Below, one piece after another: positions 2,219 through 46,430 of a DNA stretch of 64,000 nucleotides (position 1 is its first letter; each line of letters opens with the position of its first letter). The DNA comes from Streptomyces sp. L2 (GTDB lineage Bacteria; Actinomycetota; Actinomycetes; Streptomycetales; Streptomycetaceae), in NCBI RefSeq assembly GCF_004124325.1, contig NZ_QBDT01000001.1, positions 2,232,001 through 2,296,000 on the forward strand. Reading direction: 5' to 3'. The notes beneath the pieces are model-generated. The model was not told where the DNA came from. It searched no databases and worked only from the letters and a program-made list of their open reading frames with translations. The translations under genes and the position numbers were made by a program.

Positions 2219-2862
2219 TTCGCCACCTCGAGGTCGGGTACGACCTTGCGCAGCTCGTCCGGCGACAGCGCGCCCTCGCGCAGCAGCACCGGCACCTCGC
2301 CGGTGACGTCGACGATGGACGACGGCACGTTCCCGGGGGTCGGGCCGCCGTCGAGGTAGACGGAGACCGAGTCGCCGAGCATGTCCTGCGCGGCGTCGCA
2401 GTTCTCCGGCGCCGGGTGCCCGGTCAGGTTCGCGGAGGAGACGGCCATCGGGCCGAACTCGGTGAGCAGTTCGATGGCGACCGGGTGCAGCGGCATCCGG
2501 ATGGCGACCGTGCCCCGGCTGTCCCCGAGGTCCCATTGCAGGGACGGCTGGTGCCGGGCGACGAGCGTGAGGGCGCCCGGCCAGAACGCGTCGACGAGCT
2601 CCCAGGCCATCTCGGAGAAGTCCGTGACGAGCCCGTGGAGGGTGTTCGGGGAGCCGATGAGGACAGGGGTGGGCATGTTGCGGCCCCGCCCCTTGGCGGC
2701 CAGCAGGTCGCTCACGCCCTCGGAGGAGAACGCGTCGGCGCCGATGCCGTACACGGTGTCGGTCGGGAGGACCACCAGCTCGCCCCGGCGGACGGCGGAC
2801 GCGGCCTCGCGCAGACCGGTCACACGGTCGGTCGCGTCGTTGGTGTCGTATCGCCGTGCCAT
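2215..2862 (-). CDS. L-threonylcarbamoyladenylate synthase (Sua5/YciO/YrdC/YwlC family)
   Basis: Makes threonylcarbamoyl-AMP from threonine, bicarbonate and ATP, the first step of the t6A37 modification of ANN-decoding tRNAs. 215 residues, a YrdC-type single domain without the C-terminal Sua5 extension. Diagnostic blocks are the LPTDTVYGIG segment near residue 32, the K-X-R motif (AAKGRGRNMP), and SSANLTGHPAP near residue 145. ATG start at 2862. The gene sits downstream of prmC with about 70 bp between and overlaps the phosphatase gene by 4 bases, so prfA-prmC-this gene-phosphatase probably form one transcript devoted largely to translation. Confidence 0.93.
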   Translation of the reverse strand: MARRYDTNDATDRVTGLREAASAVRRGELVVLPTDTVYGIGADAFSSEGVSDLLAAKGRGRNMPTPVLIGSPNTLHGLVTDFSEMAWELVDAFWPGALTLVARHQPSLQWDLGDSRGTVAIRMPLHPVAIELLTEFGPMAVSSANLTGHPAPENCDAAQDMLGDSVSVYLDGGPTPGNVPSSIVDVTGEVPVLLREGALSPDELRKVVPDLEVAN

Positions 2863-2935
2863 GTCTAGCGGGCCTCCTCATACGCGTACTGCGGGACATA
2901 CCGGTGCTGCGGGAACGACGACGTCCCGGCCGTAC

Positions 2936-3817
2936 TCACGGCAGCGCCTTGCGGGCCGTCGCGAAGCGGGGCCGGTTGTTCAGGTCGGGGTGGTCGGCCG
3001 CGTCCGCCCAGCCGCGTTCCTCGGTGAAGATCCACGGCACCTGTCCGCCCTGGGTGTCGGCGTGCTCGATGACGACGACCCCGCCCGGGCGCAGCAGCCG
3101 GTGCGCGGTGCGTTCGATGCCGCGGATCAGGTCGAGGCCGTCCTCACCGGAGAACAGCGCGAGCTCCGGGTCGTAGTCGCGGGCCTCGGGGGCGACGTAC
3201 TCCCATTCGGTGAGCGGGATGTACGGCGGGTTGGACACGACGAGGTCGACCTGGCCGTCCAGGTCGGGGAAGGCGGTGAGCGCGTCGCCCTGGCGCAGGT
3301 CGACCCTGGACCCGGCGACGTTCTTGCGGGTCCACACCAGGGCGTCCTCGGACAGCTCGACGGCGTGCACGCGCGAGCGCGGGACCTCCTGGGCGAGGGC
3401 GAGCGCGATGGCGCCCGAGCCGGTGCACAGGTCGACGATGCAGGGCTCGACGACGTCCATGGCGCGTACGGCGTCTATGGCCCAGCCGACCACGGACTCG
3501 GTCTCCGGCCGCGGCACGAAGACACCCGGGCCGACCTGGAGCTCCAGATAGCGGAAGTAGGCCCGTCCGGTGATGTGCTGGAGCGGCTCGCGCTGCTCGC
3601 GGCGGGCGATGACCTCCCAGTACCGGGCGTCGAAGTCGGCGTCCTTGACCGAGTGCAGCGCGCCCCGCTTCACGCCGTGCACGAACGCGGCCAGCTCCTC
3701 CGCGTCGGTGCGCGGCGAGGGCACGCCCGCGTCGGCGAGTCGCTGGGTGGCCTGGGCCACCTCCGCGAGCAGCACGCTCCGGGGGCCTGGGGGTCGCTCC
3801 CCAAAATGTTGCTGCAC
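2936..3817 (-). CDS. prmC: Peptide chain release factor N5-glutamine methyltransferase
   Basis: Methylates the GGQ glutamine of release factors RF1/RF2 using S-adenosylmethionine. 293 residues: an N-terminal helical release-factor-binding domain (about 1-80) and a Rossmann methyltransferase domain with the SAM motif DLCTGSGAIAL near residue 130 and the catalytic NPPYIP near residue 195. The GTG start at 3817 has an excellent GGAGG 7 bases upstream; an internal GTG (VLLAEVAQ) could also serve but its spacing is poorer. The substrate gene prfA lies directly upstream with 30 bp between, the normal bacterial pairing. Confidence 0.95.
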   Translation of the reverse strand: MQQHFGERPPGPRSVLLAEVAQATQRLADAGVPSPRTDAEELAAFVHGVKRGALHSVKDADFDARYWEVIARREQREPLQHITGRAYFRYLELQVGPGVFVPRPETESVVGWAIDAVRAMDVVEPCIVDLCTGSGAIALALAQEVPRSRVHAVELSEDALVWTRKNVAGSRVDLRQGDALTAFPDLDGQVDLVVSNPPYIPLTEWEYVAPEARDYDPELALFSGEDGLDLIRGIERTAHRLLRPGGVVVIEHADTQGGQVPWIFTEERGWADAADHPDLNNRPRFATARKALP

Positions 3818-3847
3818 GCTGGTCCTCCGTTGGTACTCGTACGTCCG

Positions 3848-4936
<1,089 letters not shown>

Positions 4937-9052: not shown

Positions 9053-9481
9053 GAAGGGTCCTTCCCTGGAGCGGACGTCGGCCTGTCTGGCTCGGCGACC
9101 GGTTGTGCTGTCCGGCTTCGGTCCTGTCTTCGAGTGGTCCGAGCCGGGGCGGTGGTCCGCCAAAGCGGCGGAAGAGATTTGCTGGTGATGGCGCTTCCGC
9201 GTGGCACCCAGTGTCACGCGGCGTGGTAGCACCGATTCCGGAGCTCCCCCAGAGGGGGTACCCCCACCGGCGGCTCGCTCAGTGCCCGCATGCGACGTAC
9301 TGCCCAGGTACGGCGCACGGAACACGGAGTGGCTTGGGAGGCTCCCGGAAGAATGTCTGTCCCGGACGGGGACACGAAGCACCTCGCCATGGTGAGGTCG
9401 GGTGCAGACTTGAGGTTAACACTACCGGATCCAACAAACATTCCCCCTCTCCAAAACATCCGGCATCCGAGCTACCGCGTT
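9053..9481 (-). promoter_or_regulatory. rho leader / thrB-rho spacer
   Basis: 429 bp without a convincing gene. It includes a hairpin-type stretch at 9246-9263 (CCCCC-AGA-GGGGG then CCCCC) and a relatively AT-richer block near 9410-9470 that could hold the rho promoter (minus strand). Short ORFs here are in low-complexity sequence. No specific promoter elements can be assigned with confidence. Confidence 0.4.
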
Positions 9482-10399
9482 TCAGGTCGCGAGCGGCAGC
9501 ACGCTCGCTCCCTGTACGTCGAGGTCGAGCCGGTTGGCGGCCCATTCGGCGCCCGCCAGGGCCTGGACCTTGTCGGCCGTCCCGGCGTCGGCCAGGGCCA
9601 TGACGGTGGGCCCGGCGCCCGAGATGACGGCCGGGACGCCCTCGGCGCGCAGCCGCTCCACCAGGGCGGTGCTCTCCGGCATGGCCGGGGCGCGGTACTC
9701 CTGGTGCAGGCGGTCCTCGGTGGCGGGCAGCAGCAGCTCGGGGCGCCTGGTCAGGGCCTCGACGAGCAGGGCGGCGCGGCCAGCGTTGGCGGCGGCGTCG
9801 ACGTGCGGCACGGTGCGCGGGAGGAGACCGCGGGCGGTCTCGGTCAGTACCGGCTTTCCGGGTACGAAAACCACCGGAACGATGGAATGGTGCGGCTCCA
9901 TCCTGATCGCCCGGGCGGCCCCCGATTCCATCCAGGACAGGGAGAAACCGCCGAGCAGGCAGGCCGCCACGTTGTCCGGGTGGCCCTCGATCTCGGTGGC
10001 GAGCTCCAGCAGGGCGGCGTCGTCGAGCCGGGCCTCGCCGCCTATGGTCACCGCGCGCGCGGCGACGATGCCGGCGCAGATGGCGGCGGAGGAGGAGCCC
10101 AGGCCACGGCCGTGCGGGATGCGGTTGGCGCAGACGATCTCCAGGCCGCGGGGCTGTCCGCCCAGCAGGTCGAAGGCGGTGCGCAGGGAGCGGACCAGGA
10201 GGTGGCTCTCGTCGCGCGGGAGGGTCTCGCTGCCCTCGCCCGCGATGTCGACGTCCAGTCCGGAATCGGCCACCCGGACGACGACGTCGTCGTAGAGCCC
10301 CAGCGCGAGGCCGAGGGCGTCGAAGCCCGGGCCGAGGTTGGCGCTGGTGGCGGGAACGCGCACCCGTACGGCGGCGGCGCGGAACGCTGGACCGGCCAT
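9482..10399 (-). CDS. thrB: Homoserine kinase
   Basis: Phosphorylates homoserine to O-phosphohomoserine for threonine synthesis. 305 residues of the GHMP kinase family: N-terminal VRVPATSANLGPGFDALG, the ATP-binding GRGLGSSSAAICAG loop near residue 95, and a C-terminal GAGPTVMAL motif. The ATG start (MAGPAFRAAAV) has AAGGAGAG about 12 bases upstream. It is the last gene of hom-thrC-thrB, separated from thrC by 348 bp, an unusually wide gap for this operon, which holds hairpins and a GAACTC microsatellite. Confidence 0.96.
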   Translation of the reverse strand: MAGPAFRAAAVRVRVPATSANLGPGFDALGLALGLYDDVVVRVADSGLDVDIAGEGSETLPRDESHLLVRSLRTAFDLLGGQPRGLEIVCANRIPHGRGLGSSSAAICAGIVAARAVTIGGEARLDDAALLELATEIEGHPDNVAACLLGGFSLSWMESGAARAIRMEPHHSIVPVVFVPGKPVLTETARGLLPRTVPHVDAAANAGRAALLVEALTRRPELLLPATEDRLHQEYRAPAMPESTALVERLRAEGVPAVISGAGPTVMALADAGTADKVQALAGAEWAANRLDLDVQGASVLPLAT

Positions 10400-10417
10400 C
10401 GCTCGTTGACTCTCCTT

Positions 10418-10438
10418 GAACTCGAACTCGAACTCGAA
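10418..10438. repeat. GAACTC hexamer microsatellite in the thrB leader
   Basis: Three perfect tandem GAACTC units plus a partial fourth (GAA), immediately upstream of the thrB ribosome binding site (about 20 bp before the ATG on the minus strand). Copy-number change would alter the leader length but not the coding sequence. Confidence 0.8.
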
Positions 10439-10677
10439 GTGCGTGCCGCCGGATGACGCGAAAGGTCTTCGGCGGACATTCGGTGGGGACATTCGACGGA
10501 TGGGGAAACCGGGGCCGGCCGCGGACGTGGGCCGCGGACACGACGCGGCCCGTGCCACACGCGGAGGCATATGCGGTAGGCGGGTTCACCACAGCCTATC
10601 GAAGGAAGGTTCCGTGGCGACATAGGGCGCACCGGGGGCGCACGATGCGTGTCATAAGCCCCCTGTGCACCCCTGTC

Positions 10678-10706
10678 AGGGATTCTCCCGGTGTCGGGGA
10701 ATCCCT
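10678..10706 (-). terminator. Hairpin after thrC (possible attenuator before thrB)
   Basis: AGGGATT pairs with AATCCCT, with an inner CCC/GGG pairing, 42 bp after the thrC stop. A second related set of CCCTGTCAGGGA and GGGGATTCCCC segments lies at 10707-10745. There is no clear U-run, so either a Streptomyces-type terminator or an mRNA-stabilising structure is possible. Confidence 0.5.
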
Positions 10707-10747
10707 GGAATTCCCCCTGTCAGGGACTCCCGGGGATTCCCCGCGGC

Positions 10748-11806
10748 TCAGGCCAGGCCGAGGCGCTCGGCCGCGGTGGCCGCGTCGACCGGGACGGTGA
10801 CCGGCTGCGGCGCGCCGGCGACGGCCCAGTCGGGGTCCTTCAGGCCGTTGCCGGTGACCGTGCAGACGATCCGCTGGCCCGGGTCCACCTTGCCCTGTTC
10901 GGCGGCCTTGAGCAGACCGGCCACGGACGCGGCGGACGCGGGCTCCACGAAGACGCCCTCCTGCGCGGCCAACAGGCGGTAGGCGCGCAGGATCTCACGG
11001 TCCGTCACCTCGTCGATGGCGCCGCCGGACTCGTCGCGGGCGGCGAGGGCGAACTGCCAGGAGGCGGGGTTGCCGATGCGGATGGCGGTGGCGATGGTCG
11101 AGGGGTCCTTGACGACCTCGCCGCGCACGATCGGCGCGCTGCCGGAGGCCTGGAATCCCCACATGCGAGGGGTCCGCGTGGCGATGCCGTCGGCGGCGTA
11201 CTCCCGGTAGCCCTTCCAGTAGGCGGTGATGTTGCCCGCGTTGCCCACCGGGAGGACGTGGATGTCGGGCGCGTCGCCGAGCATGTCGACGATCTCGAAG
11301 GCGGCCGTCTTCTGGCCCTCGATCCGCACCGGGTTGACCGAATTGACCAGCGCCACCGGGTAGTTCTCGCTCAGCGAGCGGGCGAGGGTGAGGCAGTCGT
11401 CGAAGTTGCCGTCGACCTGGAGGATCTTCGCGCCGTGCACGAGGGCCTGGCCCATCTTGCCGAGCGCGATCTTCCCCTGCGGGACGAGCACGGCGGAGAC
11501 CATGCCCGCGCGTACGGCGTAGGCGGCGGCGGAGGCGGAGGTGTTGCCGGTGGAGGCGCAGATGACCGCCTTCGCCCCCTCCTCCTTCGCCTTGCTGATG
11601 GCCATGGTCATGCCGCGGTCCTTGAAGGAACCGGTGGGGTTGGCCCCCTCCACCTTCAGGTGGACCTCACAGCCCGTGCGCTCGGAGAGCACCTGCGCGG
11701 GCACGAGGGGCGTGCCGCCCTCGCGGAGCGTCACGACCGGCGTGGTGTCGGATACCGGCAGCCTGTCCCGGTACTCCTCGATGATTCCGCGCCACTGGTG
11801 GGTCAT
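10748..11806 (-). CDS. thrC: Threonine synthase
   Basis: Converts O-phosphohomoserine to threonine with PLP. 352 residues, the short actinobacterial class. The PLP lysine is in GSFKDRGM near residue 62, with the phosphate-binding [14 protein letters not shown] near residue 85 and the C-terminal [15 protein letters not shown] start at 11806 with GGAG-type signal upstream. Only 6 bp separate it from the hom stop, so hom and thrC are co-transcribed and probably translationally linked. Confidence 0.96.
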
Positions 11807-11812
11807 TGCTGG

Positions 11813-13105
11813 TTACTCTCCTTCAACCCGCATGATGCTGGCGACACCCCGCACGGTGTCGAGCTTGCGCAGCGCCTCGACGGTCCCGCTGAGGGAGGCG
11901 TCGGACGCGCGATGGGTGACGACGACGAGGGAGGCCTCGCCGTCCTTGCCCGACTGGCGCACCGTATCGATCGACACGCCGTGCTCCGCGAACACGGTCG
12001 CGACCTGGGCGAGGACACCCGGTTTGTCGGCGACGTCGAGGCTGATGTGGTAGCGCGTCACGACCTCGCCCATGGGCGAGACGGTCAGGGCGGCGTACGC
12101 CGACTCTCCGGGCCCCGTTGCACCGTTGAGCCGGTTGCGGCAGACGGCGACGAGGTCGCCGAGCACGGCCGAGGCGGTCGGCGAACCGCCGGCGCCGGGG
12201 CCGTAGAACATGAGCTGTCCGGCCGCGTCGGACTCCACGAAGACGGCGTTGTACGCGCCGCGCACGGAGGCGAGCGGATGGGTCAGCGGGATCATCGCGG
12301 GGTGTACGCGCGCGGTGACGGAGGCGCCGTCGGCCGCCCGCTCGCAGATGGCCAGCAGCTTGATGGTGCAGCCCATCTCCTTCGCCGAGCGGAAGTCGGC
12401 GGCGGTGACCTCGGCCATGCCCTCGCGGTAGACGTCGTCGAGGCGCACGCGCGTGTGGAAGGCGATCCCGGCGAGGATGGCGGCCTTGGCGGCGGCGTCG
12501 AAGCCCTCGACGTCGGCGGTGGGGTCGGCTTCCGCGTATCCCAGGGCGGTGGCCTCGTCGAGCGCCTCCTGGTACCCGGCGCCGGTGGAGTCCATCTTGT
12601 CGAGGATGAAGTTGGTCGTGCCGTTGACGATCCCCAGCACCCGGTTGACCTTGTCGCCGGCGAGGGACTCGCGCAGCGGCCGGATCAGCGGGATGGCACC
12701 GGCGACGGCGGCCTCGTAGTAGAGGTCCTTCTTGTTCTCGATCGCCGCCGCGTGCAGGGCGGCCCCGTCCTGGGCGAGCAGGGCCTTGTTCGCGGAGACG
12801 ACGGACGCGCCGTGCTCGAACGCGGTGGTGATGAGGGTCCGGGCCGGCTCGATGCCGCCGATCACCTCGACGACGACGTCGATGTCGCCGCGTTTGACGA
12901 GGGCGGTGGCGTCGGTGGTGACGAGGGCCGGGTCGATGCCCTCGCGCACCTTGCCGGTCCGCCGGACCGCGACCCCGGCGAGCTCGACCGGGGCCCCGAT
13001 CCGGGCCGTGAGGTCGTCGGCGTGCGTCGTCATGATGCGCGCCACCTCTGAGCCGACGACCCCACAGCCCAGCAGCGCCACCTTCAGCGGACGCGTACGC
13101 ATCAT
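11813..13105 (-). CDS. hom: Homoserine dehydrogenase with ACT domain
   Basis: NAD(P)-dependent reduction of aspartate semialdehyde to homoserine. 430 residues: NAD-binding Rossmann start (VALLGCGVVGSEVA), catalytic domain with GIVNGTTNFIL and the ADPTADVEGFDAAAK segment that bears catalytic Asp and Lys, and a C-terminal ACT domain (about 355-425) that normally senses threonine for feedback inhibition. Start chosen at MMRTRPLKV with GAGG 4-8 bases upstream; the ORF is open 16 codons further but without a matching ribosome site. First gene of hom-thrC-thrB. Confidence 0.96.
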   Translation of the reverse strand: MMRTRPLKVALLGCGVVGSEVARIMTTHADDLTARIGAPVELAGVAVRRTGKVREGIDPALVTTDATALVKRGDIDVVVEVIGGIEPARTLITTAFEHGASVVSANKALLAQDGAALHAAAIENKKDLYYEAAVAGAIPLIRPLRESLAGDKVNRVLGIVNGTTNFILDKMDSTGAGYQEALDEATALGYAEADPTADVEGFDAAAKAAILAGIAFHTRVRLDDVYREGMAEVTAADFRSAKEMGCTIKLLAICERAADGASVTARVHPAMIPLTHPLASVRGAYNAVFVESDAAGQLMFYGPGAGGSPTASAVLGDLVAVCRNRLNGATGPGESAYAALTVSPMGEVVTRYHISLDVADKPGVLAQVATVFAEHGVSIDTVRQSGKDGEASLVVVTHRASDASLSGTVEALRKLDTVRGVASIMRVEGE

Positions 13106-38707: not shown

Positions 38708-39711
38708 TCAAGCCGAGCGCTTGCGGGACGACGTCGTCTTCTTGGCCGCTGTCTTCTTCGCCGCCGCCTTGGCGGTCGGCGTCGCCTTGGCAGCCGACTT
38801 GGCGGTGGACTTGGCGGCCGGCTTGGCCGTGGAGCCGCCGGTGGACTTGGCCGTGGACATCGACGAGGAGGACCTCGCCGCCGTCTTCTTCGCGCCCCGT
38901 TCCGGCTTGGCCGCCGTCTTCTTGGCGCGCGCCGCGGGGGCCGCCTTCTTGCGGGCCGTCTCCTTCGCTGCGGAGCGGCCCGCGTGCAGGCGTCTGACCT
39001 CGGCCCCCTCCTCCGGCTCAGGCTGCTCATGCTCCGGCTCCGCGCCGCCGCGCGACTCGCGGGCCGCGCGCACGCTGTTCTCCAGGGCCGCCATCAGGTC
39101 GAGGACCTTGCCGCCGGTCGCCGGCGCGGGGCTCTCCGGCGGGGCCTCGCCCGCCGCCTTCGCCGCGATGACCTCCTCCAGCGCCTCGCGGTACTCGTCG
39201 TGCAGCTCGGTCAGGTCGACCTCGCCGAGCGTGTCCATCAGGGCGTCCGCGAGGTCGAGTTCCTTGTCGCGGACAGTGACGTCGGCGTCCGGGGCGACGC
39301 CCTCGGGGGCGCGGACCTCGTCGGGCCAGAGGAGTCCGTGCATGGCGATGGCCTCGCCGACCACCCGCAGCATGCCCAGGCGTTCCCGGCCGCGCAGCGC
39401 GTACTTGGCGATGGCGACCTTGTTGCTGCGCTTGAGAGCCTCACGAAGCAGGGTGTACGGCTTCGCCGCGGGCGCGCCGCTCGCCGCCAGGTAGTAGGCG
39501 GCGCCCATCTGGAGGGGGTCGATCCGGTCGGCCGGTACGAAAGCGACGATCTCGATGGTGCGCGCGGTGGGGATCGGCAGGTGGGAGAGGTCCTCGTCGG
39601 TGATCGGGATCATCGAGCCGTCGGCGTCCTCGTACGCCTTGCCGATCTCGGCCTGGGTGACCTCGCGGTCCTCCAGTTCGCAGACCTTGCGGTAGCGGAT
39701 GCGGCCGTTGT
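38708..39711 (-). pseudogene. ku: Host ku, 3' fragment (codons 39 to end)
   Basis: The frame from NGRIRYRKVCELEDREV to the stop is a Ku protein lacking the first 38 residues, which are found at 45373-45486. It includes the beta-barrel and dimer region (DLSHLPIPTARTIEIV, GMLRVVGEAIAMHGLLWPDEVR) and a long Lys/Ala-rich C-terminal tail (TAKSTAKSAAKATPTAKAAAKKTAAKK) as in actinobacterial Ku. The break is at the left end of the Tn554-like element. A TTG in element sequence (39727) opens the same frame, so a truncated product is conceivable. Confidence 0.93.
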
Positions 39712-39791
39712 TCTCCGGGGGTCCCAAATATGTTGCGTGACGTTGCAGTGTGCTTCGTCGTTGAGGGTGCTGCGATGGTTCTCTGGGGGTG
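39710..39791 (+). repeat. Left-end paired sites GTTCTC(T/C)GGGGG
   Basis: GTTCTCCGGGGG at 39710 and GTTCTCTGGGGG at 39778, 68 bp apart, in the same orientation, the first at the host junction. The mirror image occurs at the right end with 65-bp spacing. Probable recombinase binding sites. Confidence 0.75.
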
Positions 39792-39843
39792 TTGCTCTGT
39801 GGTGGACCGTTGCGGTCTGTCCGTGGAGCAAGGAGATCAAGAG

Positions 39844-41007
39844 GTGCGTGCTTTCCCGGTCCGGATGCCGTCCGGTGCTGCGTACTGGACAGTGGTCGAT
39901 GCCGACGTGCAGGTGGTGAACGAAGCCGACCGGTATCTGCGGGGTCTCAGGTTGGGCAAGGACCGCGCCGAGTCGACGACGAAGGCGTACGCCGGAGCGA
40001 TCGCGCTGTTCCTGCGCTGGTGTACGGCTACAGGGCGGGACTGGCGTACAGCCGCCCGCGATTTGAGCTCCTTCATCCTCTGGCTGAAATGGCAACCGGC
40101 TGGGGCGGAGGGGCAGGCGACGGTCGTACCAGGGCCCGGCGGGAAGCCCGCCCGGGATGCACGCCGGATCAATGGCGTGCTCACAGCCGTTCGCGGCTTC
40201 CTGGCCCACGCGGTGACGGAGCGAGAAGTCCCGGGCTGGGTGCTGGAGCAGCTCTACCAGCTCGGCGACAGCTTGGACCTCCCCCTTCAGGCGCAGTCGG
40301 AAGATGGCAGGCTCCGCTACCGGCTCCAGGCTCAGCATCGCCTGCCGGAGGCTGAGAAGGCCGTGGATCGGGCCAGCGATGCGGAGATCGTGGCGATGTT
40401 CCGGGCCTGTCGCTCGGCACGCGACAGGTTGCTGATCCTGTTGCTGTCCCGGGTGGGTCTTCGCCGCGGGCAGGCTGCGGGCCTGCGTCGGGGCGACGCT
40501 CACCTGCTCGTTGACTCGACCACTCTGGGATGCCGCCTGGAAGGCGCTCACCTGCATGTCGTACGGCGGCAGAATCCGAACAACGCCTGGTCGAAGTCCC
40601 GCCGTCCCGTGGCGTTGCCTGTGGATTTCCTGGTGGTGCAGGCATTCGACCACTACGTATTGGAGCGGCACGATCGGCTCGGGCCGGAGGGCAGTGATTT
40701 CCTGCTGGTGAACCTCTTCCGTGAACCGTTGGGATCGCCGATCACACCTGATGCGATCGGCGAGACCGTGGAGGCCCTGGCCCGTCGTGCCGGGCTGGAC
40801 CGCAAGGTCACCCCACACATGATGCGGCACGCTTTCGCCAGCAATGTCGCGGACTCCGGCGGCTCGTTGGACGAGATCCAGTCTCTCCTGGGCCATAAGC
40901 ACCCGGACTCGGCTCGTCCCTACCTGCACCCCGCGCAGTCCCGGTTGCGCGAGGCGATCAGCCGCGTTCCCTCGCCGAGGGATCTGGGCAAGGAGTCGGG
41001 TCGATGA
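39844..41007 (+). CDS. tnpA: Tyrosine recombinase, TnpA of a Tn554-like element
   Basis: 387 residues from the GTG (MRAFPVRMPSGAAYW) with GGAG 8 bases upstream; the frame is open 38 codons more, but that part lies in the left-end site region. N-terminal SAM-like core-binding domain (about 20-140), catalytic domain with Arg I in SRVGLRRGQAAGLRRGD, box II TPHMMRHAFAS, second His in LLGHKHPDS and Tyr in RPYLHP. The stop overlaps the tnpB ATG (ATGA). Confidence 0.9.
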   Translation: MRAFPVRMPSGAAYWTVVDADVQVVNEADRYLRGLRLGKDRAESTTKAYAGAIALFLRWCTATGRDWRTAARDLSSFILWLKWQPAGAEGQATVVPGPGGKPARDARRINGVLTAVRGFLAHAVTEREVPGWVLEQLYQLGDSLDLPLQAQSEDGRLRYRLQAQHRLPEAEKAVDRASDAEIVAMFRACRSARDRLLILLLSRVGLRRGQAAGLRRGDAHLLVDSTTLGCRLEGAHLHVVRRQNPNNAWSKSRRPVALPVDFLVVQAFDHYVLERHDRLGPEGSDFLLVNLFREPLGSPITPDAIGETVEALARRAGLDRKVTPHMMRHAFASNVADSGGSLDEIQSLLGHKHPDSARPYLHPAQSRLREAISRVPSPRDLGKESGR

Positions 41008-43490
41008 CGCTCAGCGTGGTCCGCACCCAGCCTCTCGGGCAGGAGGTGGGAGAGGACGGTGCCGCGGCCCTGTGGGCGGCGGTGGACCTGGAGTTCCTGG
41101 CCCTCTTCGACTGGTCTCCGGAGACCGGTGTGCTGTTCTTCCCCGCGGATCACCCGCTGTTGGGCACACCGCTGTGCCGAGTGAAGGGCTGCGTGCAGAC
41201 CAGTGTCACCAGGCACTTGTGTTCCGGCTGCCGATTCCGGTGGAGGCAGGCGGGGAAGCCCCCGCTGGAGGAGTTCGCCGACATGGACCGCGGCTACTGG
41301 CGGCAGGTCGGGGTCGAGGACTGCTCGGTGTCCGGATGCCGGCGGCCGTTCTCGTCTTGGCGGCGGCCATTGTGCTCAACTCACCTCGCGCAGCTCAAGC
41401 GCCGGGGCGTGACTCTGGAGGAGTTCCTCGCCCTCGACGATGTCGTCGCACTGCCCGCGTTCGGCCCCTGCGAAGTCGCTGCCTGCCACCGGTACCGGGA
41501 CGGCGTATCTCCGTACTGTCACGCCCACCGGGAGCGCTGGCGGAACGCTGTCGCCCGCGGACGGAGCACGGAGGACGAGGAGCTGTGGCGGCGCACAACA
41601 GCTCCCGTGTCCGCGAACCACGAGGTCAGCCTGCGCGGACTGCCCGATCGTGTGGTTGCGGAGATCCTCTACGGAGTTCAGGCCCGAACACGCGAAGGAA
41701 TCCACACCACGCAGTTCCTGCTCCGCAATCTGACCAATCGTCTCCGCGAACTCCAACTGCCCTCGCTGACAGCAGTGGACCCGGCACATGTCTCCCGGGG
41801 TACGCGCGGACTCTGCGGCAGCCTGGTCACCCTCGTGGGTCGGTTCGGACTGACGCCGGAGGGCGAGCGGGGCAAGGACGTGTGGAACGGTGCCGCGTTC
41901 GGACACTCCGGGCATCTGCGTTTCACCGCGATCCACCAGTCCTGGCTGAGGACCGCGGCCAAGGAATGGGCGTTGTTCTCCCTGCCTCAGCGGCGTGGCA
42001 ATGTCATGAGCAGCATCCAGGACATCCTCAACGCGTTCGCCCTTCTGTCCGAGAGCCTGAGGCTTCAGCGCGAGGATCACGGCGATGACATCCGCGCGCT
42101 CAGCCGCCGGGACATCACCGCGTTCACCAACCGTCTGGCCTTCCTGCACCACAGCGGGGAGATTTCAGTGCACAGACGGGTCGTGGTCGTCCGCTACGTC
42201 CGTGCCCATCTCGCCCGCATGCGGTCACTGGGACTGACCCGGCCCGGTCAGCCGCTGCACGGGCTGCCGGATGACTTCGCGATCCTCGCGGAAGACGTTC
42301 CCGACGACCCCGAAGACGCAGAAGCCGGCAAGGACCTCCCTGCCGAGATCATGCGGCAGATCTGCGAGCAGTTGCCCTCCCTCGTCGGCCAGGCCCGGAA
42401 CGGCAACGAGAACCGAGTGGCCGTCGAACTGCTCATCGACACCGGGAGACGGCCTCAGGAGATCTGCCAGCTGCGCTGGGACTGCCTCAAGCAGGACGCC
42501 GACGGGCAGCACGTGCTGATCTACGACAACTACAAGGCCAACCGCCACGGGCGCCGACTGCCGATCTCCCAGGCCACGGCAGGAGTGATCACCAGACAGC
42601 AGGAACTGGTCCGCGCCGACTTCCCAAGCACACCGACCGACCGGCTGGTGCTGCTGCCCACGCGGGTGGCCAGCCCTCACGGCCTCAAGCCCATCACACC
42701 GGGATGGCTCTCCGGCCGCCACCGCGAGTGGGTACGGTCCCTGCCCGAGTTCCTGGTACACACTCGTGTCGAGATGGACGGTCTGCCGGTCACCAAGATG
42801 GTGCCCTTCGACAAGTCCAAGATCTTCCTTTACGCATACCGGCACACCTACTGCCAGCGACACGCGGACGCCGGGGTCGCCGTCGACGTTCTCAGGGCGT
42901 TGATGGATCACCGGCGTCTGGACACCACTCAGGCCTACTACCGTGTCACCGAAGAACGGCGCCGCGAGGCCGTGGACCGTGTCACCGAGATGCAGTTCGA
43001 CCGACACGGCAAGCGTATCTGGCGGCAGGCCAAGGCACTGCTCGACTCCGAGCACGCCCGTCGGGCCGTCGGCGAGGTCGCCGTCCCTTACGGCGTCTGC
43101 ACCGAGCCATCGAACGTGGCAGCGGGTGGACACGACTGTCCCGTCAGATTCCGCTGCGTGGGCTGCGGTCATTTCCGTACCGACGTCTCCTACTTGCCCG
43201 ATCTGGAGGCCTACCTCGCGGACCTGCTGCGCAACCGCGAGCGGATCGCCGCCGCGCTGGACGCGGACGACTGGGCCAAGGCCGAGGCGATGCCGTCGGA
43301 CGAGGAGATCAGCCGCGTGAGACGGCTCATCAAGCGGGTCAAGGAAGGCCTGGACGATCTCGACGCGAGCCAGCGCGCCGAGGTCGAGGAGGCCGTCTCC
43401 GTGGTCCGCCGCGGGCGGCAAAGCGTGCTGCTGGGGATGCCTCGGGTCCGCCAGCCTCTTCCCGATCTGCGTCCAGAAGGGCAACTGTGA
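41004..43490 (+). CDS. tnpB: Large tyrosine recombinase, TnpB of a Tn554-like element
   Basis: 828 residues. N-terminal 190 residues hold three Cys/His clusters (CRVKGC-X8-CSGC; CSVSGC-X10-CSTH; CEVAAC-X10-CHAH), each a possible zinc finger. Middle region helical. Catalytic domain in about 470-670: Arg I in GRRPQEICQLRWDCL, box II YAYRHTYCQRH, second His in LMDHRRLD, nucleophile in TQAYYRVT. A C-terminal zinc site follows (CPVRFRCVGCGHFRTD) and then a charged helical tail. Partner of TnpA in Tn554 transposition. This is not the IS605 TnpB nuclease despite the name. Confidence 0.9.
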   Translation: MTLSVVRTQPLGQEVGEDGAAALWAAVDLEFLALFDWSPETGVLFFPADHPLLGTPLCRVKGCVQTSVTRHLCSGCRFRWRQAGKPPLEEFADMDRGYWRQVGVEDCSVSGCRRPFSSWRRPLCSTHLAQLKRRGVTLEEFLALDDVVALPAFGPCEVAACHRYRDGVSPYCHAHRERWRNAVARGRSTEDEELWRRTTAPVSANHEVSLRGLPDRVVAEILYGVQARTREGIHTTQFLLRNLTNRLRELQLPSLTAVDPAHVSRGTRGLCGSLVTLVGRFGLTPEGERGKDVWNGAAFGHSGHLRFTAIHQSWLRTAAKEWALFSLPQRRGNVMSSIQDILNAFALLSESLRLQREDHGDDIRALSRRDITAFTNRLAFLHHSGEISVHRRVVVVRYVRAHLARMRSLGLTRPGQPLHGLPDDFAILAEDVPDDPEDAEAGKDLPAEIMRQICEQLPSLVGQARNGNENRVAVELLIDTGRRPQEICQLRWDCLKQDADGQHVLIYDNYKANRHGRRLPISQATAGVITRQQELVRADFPSTPTDRLVLLPTRVASPHGLKPITPGWLSGRHREWVRSLPEFLVHTRVEMDGLPVTKMVPFDKSKIFLYAYRHTYCQRHADAGVAVDVLRALMDHRRLDTTQAYYRVTEERRREAVDRVTEMQFDRHGKRIWRQAKALLDSEHARRAVGEVAVPYGVCTEPSNVAAGGHDCPVRFRCVGCGHFRTDVSYLPDLEAYLADLLRNRERIAAALDADDWAKAEAMPSDEEISRVRRLIKRVKEGLDDLDASQRAEVEEAVSVVRRGRQSVLLGMPRVRQPLPDLRPEGQL

Positions 43491-44020
43491 CCAGCAAGAA
43501 CAGTCTCCCCATGGCCGAAGGACGACGAGGCGACTCAGCACGCCGACGGCAGCGAGTCGAGAACGCCATCAGAGCCGCGGTCAAGGACGGCGGAGAGATC
43601 ACCGCATCCAGCATCGCCCGAACCGCCGGAGTCGACCGATCCTTCCTCTACCGCCACCGTGATCTGCTGCAACTCGTCCATACCGCGGCAACAGCGCCGT
43701 CGTCCAGCCAAGGCCCCGCCCAGGTCAGCAGGGCCTCCCTGCAAGCCGACCTGGCGAACGCCCTGGAGCGCACCGCCCGGCTCACGGCCCGCGTCCGGCA
43801 GCTGGAGAACCGGCTCTCCCAACAGCTCGGTGAAAAGGCCTGGCGCGACTCCGGCCTCGGAGCGCCCACCGACATCGACAACCTCCAGCGGCAGGTCACC
43901 ACTCTGGAACAGCGCGTGGTGGACCTCCAAGGCCAACTCGAAGACCGCGCCGAGGAACTACAGGCCGCACGTGCAGCCAACCGGGAGCTGACCCGAACCC
44001 TCAACCAGAACCACCACTGA
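43487..44020 (+). CDS. tnpC: TnpC-like accessory protein (DUF6262 type)
   Basis: 177 residues from the GTG that overlaps the tnpB stop (GTGA). HTH-like N-terminus (ENAIRAAVKDGGEITASSIARTAGVDRSFLYRHRDL) and a long coiled coil (LENRLSQQL, NLQRQVTTLEQRVVDLQGQLEDRAEEL). In Tn554 TnpC is not essential but affects the frequency and orientation of transposition. Followed 91 bp later by the cargo ku on the same strand. Confidence 0.85.
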   Translation: MTSKNSLPMAEGRRGDSARRRQRVENAIRAAVKDGGEITASSIARTAGVDRSFLYRHRDLLQLVHTAATAPSSSQGPAQVSRASLQADLANALERTARLTARVRQLENRLSQQLGEKAWRDSGLGAPTDIDNLQRQVTTLEQRVVDLQGQLEDRAEELQAARAANRELTRTLNQNHH

Positions 44021-44111
44021 CCGCTCCACTCCGAACCGTCCAGGTGGCGCCTGCCGGGATGCGATCAGCGGCAGACGGAGGTGCCATGGGCTAACAGGAG
44101 GTGGGAAGGCC

Positions 44112-45158
44112 ATGGCCCGAGCGGTCTGGAGCGGTGCTCTCTCATTCGGGCTCGTCGCCCTGCCGGTGCAGCTGTTCACGGCGACGGAAAGCCACACGAT
44201 CCGATTCAACCAGCTCCAACGCGGAACGTCGGACCGAGTGCGCAACAAGCGAGTCAACGAGCGCACCGGCGAGGAAGTCCCTATGGAGGAGATCGTCAAG
44301 GGCTTCGACATAGGGGACGAATACGTGGTCGTCGAGCCCGGCGAACTGGACGAGATCGCCCCTGGCCAGTCCAAGTCGATGGAGATCACCGGGTTCGTCG
44401 ACCTGGACCAGGTCGAGCCGGTCTTCTTCGACAAGACCTACTACCTGGCGCCCAAGGGCAAGGAGTACGCCAAGGTCTACGCACTGCTCCACAGCGCTCT
44501 TGCCCAGGCGAACAAGGTCGGTATCGCCACCGTCGTCATGCGCAACCACGAGTACCTGGTCGCCGTGAAGGCAGAAGGCGATGTCCTGGCTATGCACACC
44601 ATGCACTGGGCGGACGAGGTCCGCGATCCGCACCGGGAGATCGGGAGCCTCCCGGAGGAGACGCAGGTCGCCGACAAGGAGCTTCAGACGGCGGTGCAGT
44701 TGGTCGAGGCAATGAGCATCGACTGGAATCCGGAGGAGTACCACGACACCTACCAGGAGAAGGTGCTCCAGCTTGTGGAGGCCAAGCGCACCGGTCAGAC
44801 GGTGGAGAAGGGCGAGTCGGCACCGCGCTCCACCAACGTCATCGACCTCATGGATGCGCTGCGTGCCAGCGTCGAGCAGGCCGAGACGACAAGGGAAGGA
44901 GGCGGGAAGGGGCCACAGAAAGCCACAAGCACCAGCCCTCCTACACCGTTGAAGACAGCGGCTGAGAGACGCGCGGGCCGTTCGGCAGGAAAAGCGGCGC
45001 AGTCCTCGAAGGTTTCGGAGCTGGAAGGAATGAGTAAAGCCGAGCTCTACCAGCGCGCCTCCGAGGCCGACATTCCCGGTCGTTCTTCGATGACCCGCGG
45101 GGAACTACTCAAAGCCCTCAGCGGCAAGAAAGGGCGGCGCACCGCACGAGCTTCCTGA
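44112..45158 (+). CDS. ku: Complete Ku protein carried by the element
   Basis: 348 residues from ATG (MARAVWSGALSFGLV) with ACAGGAGG upstream. Full Ku beta-barrel/bridge domain (to about 260: FFDKTYYLAPKGKEYAKVYALLHSAL, VLAMHTMHWADEVRDP) that encircles DNA ends as a homodimer, and a C-terminal SAP-like segment (SKVSELEGMSKAELYQRASEADIPGRSSMTRGELL) ending in a short basic tail. It differs from host ku in sequence (for example DRVRNKRVNERTGEEV against GRIRYRKVCELEDREV), so it is a different Ku subfamily and not a duplicated host gene. Likely expressed with tnpABC. Role: replacement or altered NHEJ, inference. Confidence 0.93.
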   Translation: MARAVWSGALSFGLVALPVQLFTATESHTIRFNQLQRGTSDRVRNKRVNERTGEEVPMEEIVKGFDIGDEYVVVEPGELDEIAPGQSKSMEITGFVDLDQVEPVFFDKTYYLAPKGKEYAKVYALLHSALAQANKVGIATVVMRNHEYLVAVKAEGDVLAMHTMHWADEVRDPHREIGSLPEETQVADKELQTAVQLVEAMSIDWNPEEYHDTYQEKVLQLVEAKRTGQTVEKGESAPRSTNVIDLMDALRASVEQAETTREGGGKGPQKATSTSPPTPLKTAAERRAGRSAGKAAQSSKVSELEGMSKAELYQRASEADIPGRSSMTRGELLKALSGKKGRRTARAS

Positions 45159-45295
45159 CGCAGGGTCTCGGGGCGGTAGCCCCGCCAGGACCAACCACGG
45201 CAGGGACGCGCTCCAGATCGTCGGAGTCGACGCCTGCAGAGACTTTCGCGTGGCTTGCGAACCCACCATCCACCACAGTTGTTGCAGTTGACATA

Positions 45296-45370
45296 CCCAG
45301 AACAGCCGCTCCGACCTGCACCAACACCGTTCTCACCGCACCTGAACGCCTCTCACCCCCCAGAGAACCC
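45296..45370 (-). repeat. Right-end paired sites, inverted relative to the left end
   Basis: CCCAGAGAAC at 45296-45305 and at 45361-45370 (GTTCTCTGGG on the minus strand), 65 bp apart, the outer one next to the host junction. The rest of 45159-45372 has no gene. Confidence 0.75.
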
Positions 45371-45372
45371 AT

Positions 45373-45486
45373 GTCCTCGGTGTGGACCTGGCGGAAGGCG
45401 ATGGCGTGGCTCTCGGTGGCGTTCACCAGCTTGATCGGGATGCTGACGAGACCGAAGGAGATGGCGCCGTTCCAAATGGATCGCAC
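45373..45486 (-). pseudogene. ku: Host ku, 5' fragment (codons 1-38)
   Basis: MRSIWNGAISFGLVSIPIK to HTED is the N-terminus of Ku and ends at the right junction of the element; the frame then runs into element DNA to a stop at 45118, giving a 122-codon hybrid. The original promoter, shared in a 62-bp divergent spacer with the LigD-type gene, is still in place and now transcribes into the element antisense to its ku 3' end. Confidence 0.93.
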
Positions 45487-45548: not shown

Positions 45549-46430
45549 ATGATGCCTATCACAGAGGTGGAGGGGCGCCGGGTCCCGCTGAGCAACCTGG
45601 AGAAGGTGCTGTATCCGGCGACCGGCTTCACCAAGGGGGAGCTGCTGCACTACTACGCGACGACCGCCCCCGTCCTGCTGCCGCACCTGCGCGACCGGGC
45701 GTTGTCGTTCCTGCGGTATCCGGACGGGCCGGACGGGCAGCTGTTCTTCGCGAAGAACGTGCCGCCGGGTACGCCCGAGTGGGTCATGACGGCTGAGGTC
45801 CCCCGGTCGGAGGGGCCGGCCCGGATGGTGGTGGTGCGGGATCTGGCGAGCCTGGTGTGGGCGGCGAACCTGGTCACCGAGTTCCACACGCACCAGTGGC
45901 TCGTGCGGTCCCCGGACGAGGCCGACCGGCTGGTCTTCGACCTCGACCCCGGGGCGCCCGCGACGATCGTGCAGTGCTGCGAGGTCGCGCTGTGGCTGCG
46001 CGAGCGGCTCGCCGCGGACGGGATCGAGGCGTACGCCAAGACGGCCGGGTCGAAGGGCCTGCATCTGCTGGCGGCGGTGCGCGGGGGCTCGTCGGAGGAG
46101 ACGTCGGAGTACGCGAAGGCGCTGGCGATGGAGGCGGAGCGGGCGATGCCCCGGCTCGTGGTGCACCGGATGACGAAGAGTCTGCGGCCGGGCAAGGTGT
46201 TCGTCGACTGGAGCCAGAACGCGGCTCGCAAGACCACGGCGGCGCCGTACACCGTGCGGGCCCGGCGGACCCCGCTGGTGTCGGCGCCGGTGACCTGGGA
46301 GGAGGTCGCGGACTGCGGGGCACCGGCCCAGCTGGAGTTCGTCGCCGAGGACCTCGCGCCGCGGATCCAGGACTACGGGGACCTGCTGGCCCCGCTGCTG
46401 GACCCCAAAGGGGCGGCACGGCTGCCGTGA
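45549..46430 (+). CDS. ligD: LigD-type primase-polymerase of NHEJ
   Basis: 293 residues; stand-alone polymerase domain of bacterial LigD (AEP superfamily). Features: LSNLEKVLYPATGFTKGELLHYY, metal-binding DLDPG (D-X-D near residue 137), KTAGSKGLHLLAAV near 165, and DWSQNAARKTTAAPYTVRARRTP near 220. It fills gaps with ribonucleotides at DNA ends bound by Ku. No ligase or phosphoesterase domain, so LigD functions are split in this strain. The ATG gives MMPITEVEGR. Divergent from host ku, the normal NHEJ pair. Confidence 0.93.
   Translation: MMPITEVEGRRVPLSNLEKVLYPATGFTKGELLHYYATTAPVLLPHLRDRALSFLRYPDGPDGQLFFAKNVPPGTPEWVMTAEVPRSEGPARMVVVRDLASLVWAANLVTEFHTHQWLVRSPDEADRLVFDLDPGAPATIVQCCEVALWLRERLAADGIEAYAKTAGSKGLHLLAAVRGGSSEETSEYAKALAMEAERAMPRLVVHRMTKSLRPGKVFVDWSQNAARKTTAAPYTVRARRTPLVSAPVTWEEVADCGAPAQLEFVAEDLAPRIQDYGDLLAPLLDPKGAARLP

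Follow-up and report, generated by a model that had tools for sequence, protein, structure and literature searches.

The locus

The window, a stretch of 64,000 nucleotides (G000:C1:2232001-2296000) from a Streptomyces genome of 8.07 Mb, contains a 5.66-kb Tn554-type transposon that carries tnpA, tnpB, tnpC and a Ku gene and lies inside the host kuA, which is broken after codon 38, beside polK. The genes at the locus are as follows.

About 38708-39712, minus strand: kuA 3' part, codon 39 to stop, frame still open; Ku_bact 216 bits, model positions 38-259
39730-41007, plus strand: tnpA, tyrosine recombinase of 425 aa; Pfam Phage_integrase 74 bits
41004-43490, plus strand: tnpB, long tyrosine recombinase of 828 aa; Pfam Phage_integrase 46 bits
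43487-44020, plus strand: tnpC, DUF6262 protein; Pfam DUF6262 40 bits
44112-45158, plus strand: cargo Ku, KuB-like, intact, 348 aa; Ku_bact 305 bits, Pfam Ku 170 bits
45373-45486, minus strand: kuA 5' part, codons 1-38; Ku_bact 50 bits, model positions 1-37
45549-46430, plus strand: polK, LigD-type polymerase, intact, beside the kuA 5' part; Pfam LigD_Prim-Pol 266 bits

Together, the two kuA halves cover the Ku_bact model without a gap (1-37 and 38-259), in agreement with the original prediction of a host ku split after codon 38. The insert had been described as tnpA-tnpB-tnpC with a complete Ku, next to an intact LigD-type polymerase, and the domain searches recover each of these genes: the three tnp genes are co-directional, Phage_integrase is present in TnpA (425 aa) and TnpB (828 aa) and DUF6262 in TnpC, and the cargo Ku domain is complete (Ku_bact 305 bits for a cut-off of 150; Pfam Ku positions 1-189 of 190). 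It should be noted that the start of tnpA possibly lies later, for example at 39799. A working two-piece KuA assembled from the split halves is unlikely.

In Streptomyces, kuA-polK was found in all but one of 38 genomes, and KuB, a scattered Ku with a SAP domain that is distinct from the core kuA, in 8 of the 38 (PMC5124664). By this description, as given in the part of the paper available, the host gene corresponds to kuA and the cargo is KuB-like, the named KuB proteins (S. ambofaciens, SCO0601) standing outside our tree. Like KuB, the cargo is a Ku distinct from kuA; its SAP-like tail gives a weak Rho_N match of 21.6 bits, under the Pfam cut-off of 24.9. In the Ku tree it groups with other non-KuA Streptomyces Ku proteins, apart from KuA. 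A phage origin of the cargo was considered and rejected: 81 phage records matched, all at less than 60% identity (best listed, 37.6%). PADLOC returned no defence match for the cargo Ku, TnpA or TnpB.

Ends of the element and junction cores

The element is bounded by short inverted arms, and a 6-bp core lies at each junction.

39705-39710, plus strand: core of the tnpA-side junction, CCGTTG; C-AAC-GG on the ku strand, D-N-G
39711-39721, plus strand: left terminal arm, TTCTCCGGGGG; most of the relatives shown have the motif at their left end too
39779-39789, plus strand: inner repeat of the arm motif, TTCTCTGGGGG, 68 bp in from the left end
45357-45367, plus strand: right terminal arm, CCCCCAGAGAA
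45368-45373, plus strand: core of the tnpA-distal junction, CCCATG; C-ATG-GG on the ku strand, D-M-G

The inner copy of the arm motif is likely a second recombinase site. Of the 28 elements scanned, 12 have this repeat at a spacing of exactly 68 bp inward from the left end, namely that of the window and L035, L036, L039, L040, L043, L047, L049, L056, L070, L071 and L073; the spacing is 67 bp in L037 and 70 bp in L050, and the repeat was not seen as such in the rest.

The cores of the elements found in ku, and of one locus described below (G367), are given as tnpA side/far side on the plus strand.

Window: CCGTTG/CCCATG
S. diastatochromogenes: CCGTTG/CCGTTG
MUM 203J: CCGCCG/CCGCCG
S. bicolor: CCGCCG/CCGCCG; the left arm differs, ATCTCCGGGGG
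S. coeruleorubidus: CCCATG/CCCATG
G101: CCTCCG/GCCATG
CB02959: left CCGCCG; right end not found
G367: right CCGCCG

With the sole exception of the right core of G101, all read C-NNN-GG on the ku strand, that is, the D-x-G codons of ku. In movement of this type the tnpA-distal core derives from the donor site, according to the available parts of PMC12486829 and PMC10214605. By analogy with this rule, CCCATG at the far side of the window element may be read as a footprint brought from a donor site. Since this core matches the ku core of S. coeruleorubidus and is unlike the window's own target, movement from one ku to another would be the simplest reading. Read as sequence, the junctions would fit a short target core at one end and a donor core at the other.

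Repeated insertion at one codon of ku

For comparison with empty sites, 18 ku regions were taken, 17 of them with a polK-like gene beside ku. The 15 that passed a score filter (first 38 codons closest to kuA) were read, and the site was uninterrupted in all of them; codon 39 encodes G in 12 of these sites, Q in two others and D in the last. The two ku parts of the window, predicted to be one gene in strains that lack the element, are thus joined in every kuA site read.

Both kinship and name place the relatives in Streptomyces. TnpA matches (E 1e-30) occurred in 68 of 392 genomes of the genus, the window's own included, and we examined 34 regions around such matches and one around a subtelomeric ku of the window genome; L034 and L058, duplicates of L073 and L072, were removed before counting. 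A scan of GTDB contigs with the TnpB alignment gave five loci. The combination of tnpABC and Ku in kuA beside polK, at the same codon, was found in the window and in three further species: S. bicolor NRRL B-5348, Streptomyces sp. MUM 203J and S. diastatochromogenes DSM 40608. The search that had been proposed, for tnpABC with ku next to a split ku, was therefore productive. A one-off insertion or an assembly error is ruled out, the structure being common to four species, and we regard the anatomy and recurrence of the element as near certain.

In S. coeruleorubidus ATCC 13740, G101 and CB02959, an element without Ku cargo occupies the same codon of another ku; the CB02959 element is decayed, and the ku 3' piece alone was found there. 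In total, all seven elements of this TnpB clade sit at the homologous ku codon, which upholds ku as a fixed target, proposed at the outset. Relatives that insert elsewhere and lack ku had been named as counter-evidence. There are none within the ku-targeting TnpB clade, and they do exist outside it: more distant relatives sit in other genes, for example dprA, the halves of which flank L036.

That dprA, a DNA-processing gene (L036 6681-7382 and 12271-12723, in G093), is split by a related element without dprA-like cargo. In L047, Ku was ruled out as cargo, the intact ku lying about 0.7 kb past the right end assigned to the element. Across the class, a TnpB match at E 1e-120 was present in 3 of 394 genomes, one of which is the window's own. 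On plasmids, 151 records matched TnpB (best listed, 57.8%), with no copy of the ku lineage among the best 30 listed. Of viral contigs, 74 stretches fitted a pattern and none encodes a relative of the element.

Phylogeny and horizontal movement

The TnpB tree covers 28 elements. All seven that target ku group in a single clade (100/100), and the four Ku carriers group in another nested within it (100/99). The simplest order is that ku targeting came first and Ku cargo later; the alternative is loss of cargo in the sisters.

Synonymous divergence was computed on genes trimmed to their starts. Between the window and S. bicolor, dS is 0.11 for tnpA, 0.17 for tnpB and 0.63 for polK; between the window and S. 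diastatochromogenes, the values are 0.96, 0.90 and 0.34, respectively. The element thus diverges less than the host gene in the first pair and more in the second, so it moves horizontally between lineages. Moreover, the dS of the cargo between the window and S. bicolor (0.46) exceeds that of tnpA, and S. bicolor pairs with S. diastatochromogenes in the Ku tree, by its cargo, and with the window in the TnpB tree. Given this conflict, cargo genes seem to have been exchanged between elements, and the histories of cargo and tnp genes are partly separate.

Target-like cargo in other relatives

Cargo open reading frames were compared with the flanks of their own element by tblastn with composition correction in 28 elements, of which L038 and L046 had no usable flank or cargo, leaving 26 testable. 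The right end was mapped in 16 of the 28; otherwise, 2.5 kb past tnpC was counted as cargo. Homology to the own target appeared in five of the 26, with E values of 1e-28 to 1e-36 for the four Ku carriers and of 4e-15 for L051 of G244, and was absent at E 0.01 in the other 21. Between elements, the best 40 of 81 matches all paired Ku with Ku but one.

That pair joined a cargo frame of L047 to the right flank of L039 (E 2e-37). In L042 (9000-11060, G302), cargo frames within both ends resemble, by eye, a terpene synthase and a polyprenyl synthetase.

L051, whose TnpA is about 55% identical, splits a methyltransferase-NUDIX gene and carries a NUDIX domain immediately within its right end; the frame of this domain continues beyond that end (features at 2789-4264, 4218, 9397-9846 and about 9940). 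On this evidence L051 is a second, separate case of target-like cargo. Among the plasmid relatives, 14 of the 30 listed TnpB matches were tested with the left flank only: 12 gave no match to their own target at E 0.01, and none of the 14 was clear. The two uncertain cases are L120, with own matches in several frames (E to 6e-30), and L124, with one own match (E 3e-11) about 1 kb from the junction. Target-like cargo therefore recurs, but is a minority.

Two plasmid elements carry other annotated genes. The cargo of L119, a Tn554-type element (9271-13081, NBC_01220 plasmid), is annotated as DarT, ADP-ribosylglycohydrolase and 3'-5' exonuclease and is toxin-antitoxin-like. In L124 (9750-10718, R. 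erythropolis pRLLBG43), nrdF lies inside Tn554-type ends, with ligD beyond.

The cargo is the only complete Ku of its hosts

Whole-genome searches were made for Ku, and in all four carrier hosts the cargo proved to be the sole Ku with a complete Ku domain. In the assemblies searched, S. bicolor and MUM 203J have the cargo Ku, the split kuA and no other Ku. S. diastatochromogenes has an additional Ku fragment in a 116-aa frame. The window genome has an additional subtelomeric ku frame of 300 aa that matches just part of the Ku domain (G000:C1:131519-132406; L068 7520-8407); this KuB-type frame lacks part of the Ku core and contains no internal stop. As for the hosts of elements without Ku, S. 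coeruleorubidus and G101 retain an uninterrupted kuA beside polK, and CB02959 retains two Ku genes with domains complete or nearly so. Thus, Ku cargo is present in four of the four elements inserted in the primary kuA and in none of the three in a secondary ku, a small sample. At the level of sequence, this gives substance to the idea, put forward in the original prediction, that Ku is a target-complementing cargo.

Across the genus, 22 of the 392 genomes gave no Ku match. In G153, which also has a tnpA remnant, and in G102, weak Ku matches alone were found; these are possible further broken ku loci.

Among the four carriers, dN/dS of the cargo Ku is 0.16-0.24 (trimmed genes), and by this measure the gene is under purifying selection. 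We also searched for the 36-base kuA site. The best match scores 17-19 in the first 400 bases of six cargo-clade genes and 22 anywhere inside the window element; nine kuA sites score 26-36 on the same match. Judged by these scores, the element probably spares the divergent paralogue that it carries.

These data bear on whether kuB was a passenger acquired by chance, its match to the target being coincidental. Relatives do bear unrelated cargo, and 21 of the 26 testable elements have none that resembles their target. However, the cargo tracks the primary target and is under purifying selection, none of the four hosts has another complete Ku, and in G367, described below, the cargo-clade Ku outlasts tnpABC at the locus. 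We consider a chance passenger improbable, though the strongest of the alternatives.

Replacement-like loci

Cargo ku DNA matched 51 of the 392 genomes (E 1e-100), and 10 of the contexts were examined. In G367, polK is followed by a kuA 5' scar that stops where the right end of the element lies; after two further genes come an intact KuB of the cargo clade and an eroded 3' tail of kuA. No tnpABC was found at this kuA-polK locus, and the genome has one further complete Ku domain, in a divergent ku without polK. In G272, a KuB precedes polK with one gene between, and the genes beyond polK match those of the window. No kuA and no scar were found there, and this KuB is the only Ku in the genome; its clade and its locus suggest that it descends from such an element. 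On gene order and clade, G367 and G272 constitute two replacement-like loci.

The Ku tree comprises 69 rows, including 43 of 120 listed database proteins (2920 hits; duplicates of rows already present were omitted), and its bootstrap is not fully settled. It contains a cargo clade of 24 rows (99/97), formed by the four cargos, G367, G272 and 18 database proteins. All six members with a genomic context read sit at the kuA-polK locus, the other 18 being the database proteins, which come without context. Of the other eight contexts (L160-L167), seven are in the tree, all outside the cargo clade, and the broken L164 was left out; none has a clear polK alongside. The only Ku of genome G051 (L160, G051:C1:1052737-1053762) is KuB-type, lies outside the cargo clade and is in tandem with a polymerase 49% identical to polK.

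The cargo might instead serve the element itself, with Ku protecting or helping to repair its DNA intermediates and host rescue as a side effect. Streptomyces Ku proteins do protect DNA ends in vitro (PMC5124664, available part); yet three sister elements at the same site manage without Ku, and G367 and G272 retain Ku without tnpABC, and we find this reading slightly less probable still than a chance passenger. A reversible switch, in which excision restores kuA and two Ku types alternate, is very improbable: both cores preserve the ku frame, either would leave D-x-G, and the 3' part of kuA has kept an open frame in the window, but comparable SE elements do not regenerate the empty site (PMC10214605, in the part available) and the loss in G367 and G272 is one-way.

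Discussion

The explanation that we favour is a Tn554-type lineage whose fixed target is the conserved D-x-G stretch at codons 38-40 of ku. Insertion would proceed by tyrosine recombination through TnpA, TnpB and TnpC, with 6 bp of the donor site left as a footprint. One sub-lineage bears a divergent KuB-like gene that lacks the target sequence; on entering the primary kuA, it disrupts this gene and provides a Ku instead. The host thereby retains an intact Ku and would become dependent on the one that the element carries. The tnp genes and the remnants of kuA may later decay, until the ku that remains is the KuB next to polK. On these data, it is likely that the element's Ku takes over the function of KuA. 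The cargo Ku would restore end joining and be retained for that reason. It should be noted that bacterial end joining is not essential for growth (PMC5124664, available part), so the pressure to rescue may be weak.

Tn554-related transposons of actinobacteria are known from Streptomyces, Rhodococcus and Mycobacterium, and their kinship to Tn554 has been reported (PMC3414803). Like them, the ku element has two tandem tyrosine recombinases, one short and one abnormally long, and a TnpC-like third gene; unlike them, it has a ku target and a ku cargo, neither of which is reported for that class in the available part of this source. The closest precedent is Tn552-II of Staphylococcus aureus, described in 2025, which carries tnpABC and a 'target-gene-like' gene homologous to the gene it splits, and whose authors suggest that this gene may rescue the target (PMC12486829). 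Both elements share tnpABC, target-homologous cargo and, as the junctions are read here, a brought-in att footprint. However, Tn552-II splits a yolD-like gene and also carries a resistance operon, and a copy of the att site is present within its target-like gene; the cargo Ku, by contrast, reaches at most 19 of 36 against the kuA site. Moreover, the part of that paper available reports no replacement series of the kind seen for the ku element. SE elements resemble the ku element in having two tyrosine recombinases, terminal inverted motifs, a 6-bp footprint and few target sites, but differ in their four core genes and their occurrence mainly in Gammaproteobacteria, and no target-like cargo is mentioned for them in the accessible text (PMC10214605). 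Streptomyces KuB genes have been described as variable host genes, with no link to transposons reported in the portion of PMC5124664 at hand.

Titles and abstract starts of open-licence PMC papers, a search that does not cover subscription papers, gave no transposon in ku or with ku cargo. The original prediction knew of no described transposon with this target and cargo, and within this search that stands for ku; the class itself is known (PMC3414803), and target-like cargo as such has a precedent (PMC12486829), both sources being available in part. What is new is ku as a target, Ku as a target-like cargo, the repeated insertion at one codon and the two replacement-like loci.

A broader reading is that the element is a selfish one that acts by 'disrupt and rescue': it would break a conserved repair gene at a fixed codon, supply a divergent copy proof against its recombinase, gain the reliance of the host and in time replace the Ku of the species. 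Such a strategy would have at least three independent origins among Tn554-type lineages, those with Ku, with NUDIX and with the Staphylococcus YolD-like gene. In this full form we hold the reading tentatively, at a little under even chances. Engineered cleave-and-rescue drives are a parallel to such a break-and-replace ku element.

If this is true, a mobile element disrupts a DNA-repair protein that belongs to the core of its host and puts another in its place, and the intermediates can be seen: an empty kuA, a split kuA with the full element, a scar with KuB, and KuB alone beside polK. It may also be a route by which the scattered, variable Ku genes of Streptomyces spread, the origin of which was left open in the available part of PMC5124664. 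Moreover, the rescue idea proposed for Tn552-II becomes testable in Streptomyces, and target-complementing cargo would, if the reading holds, be a means by which fixed-site transposons have repeatedly come to exploit protein-coding genes.
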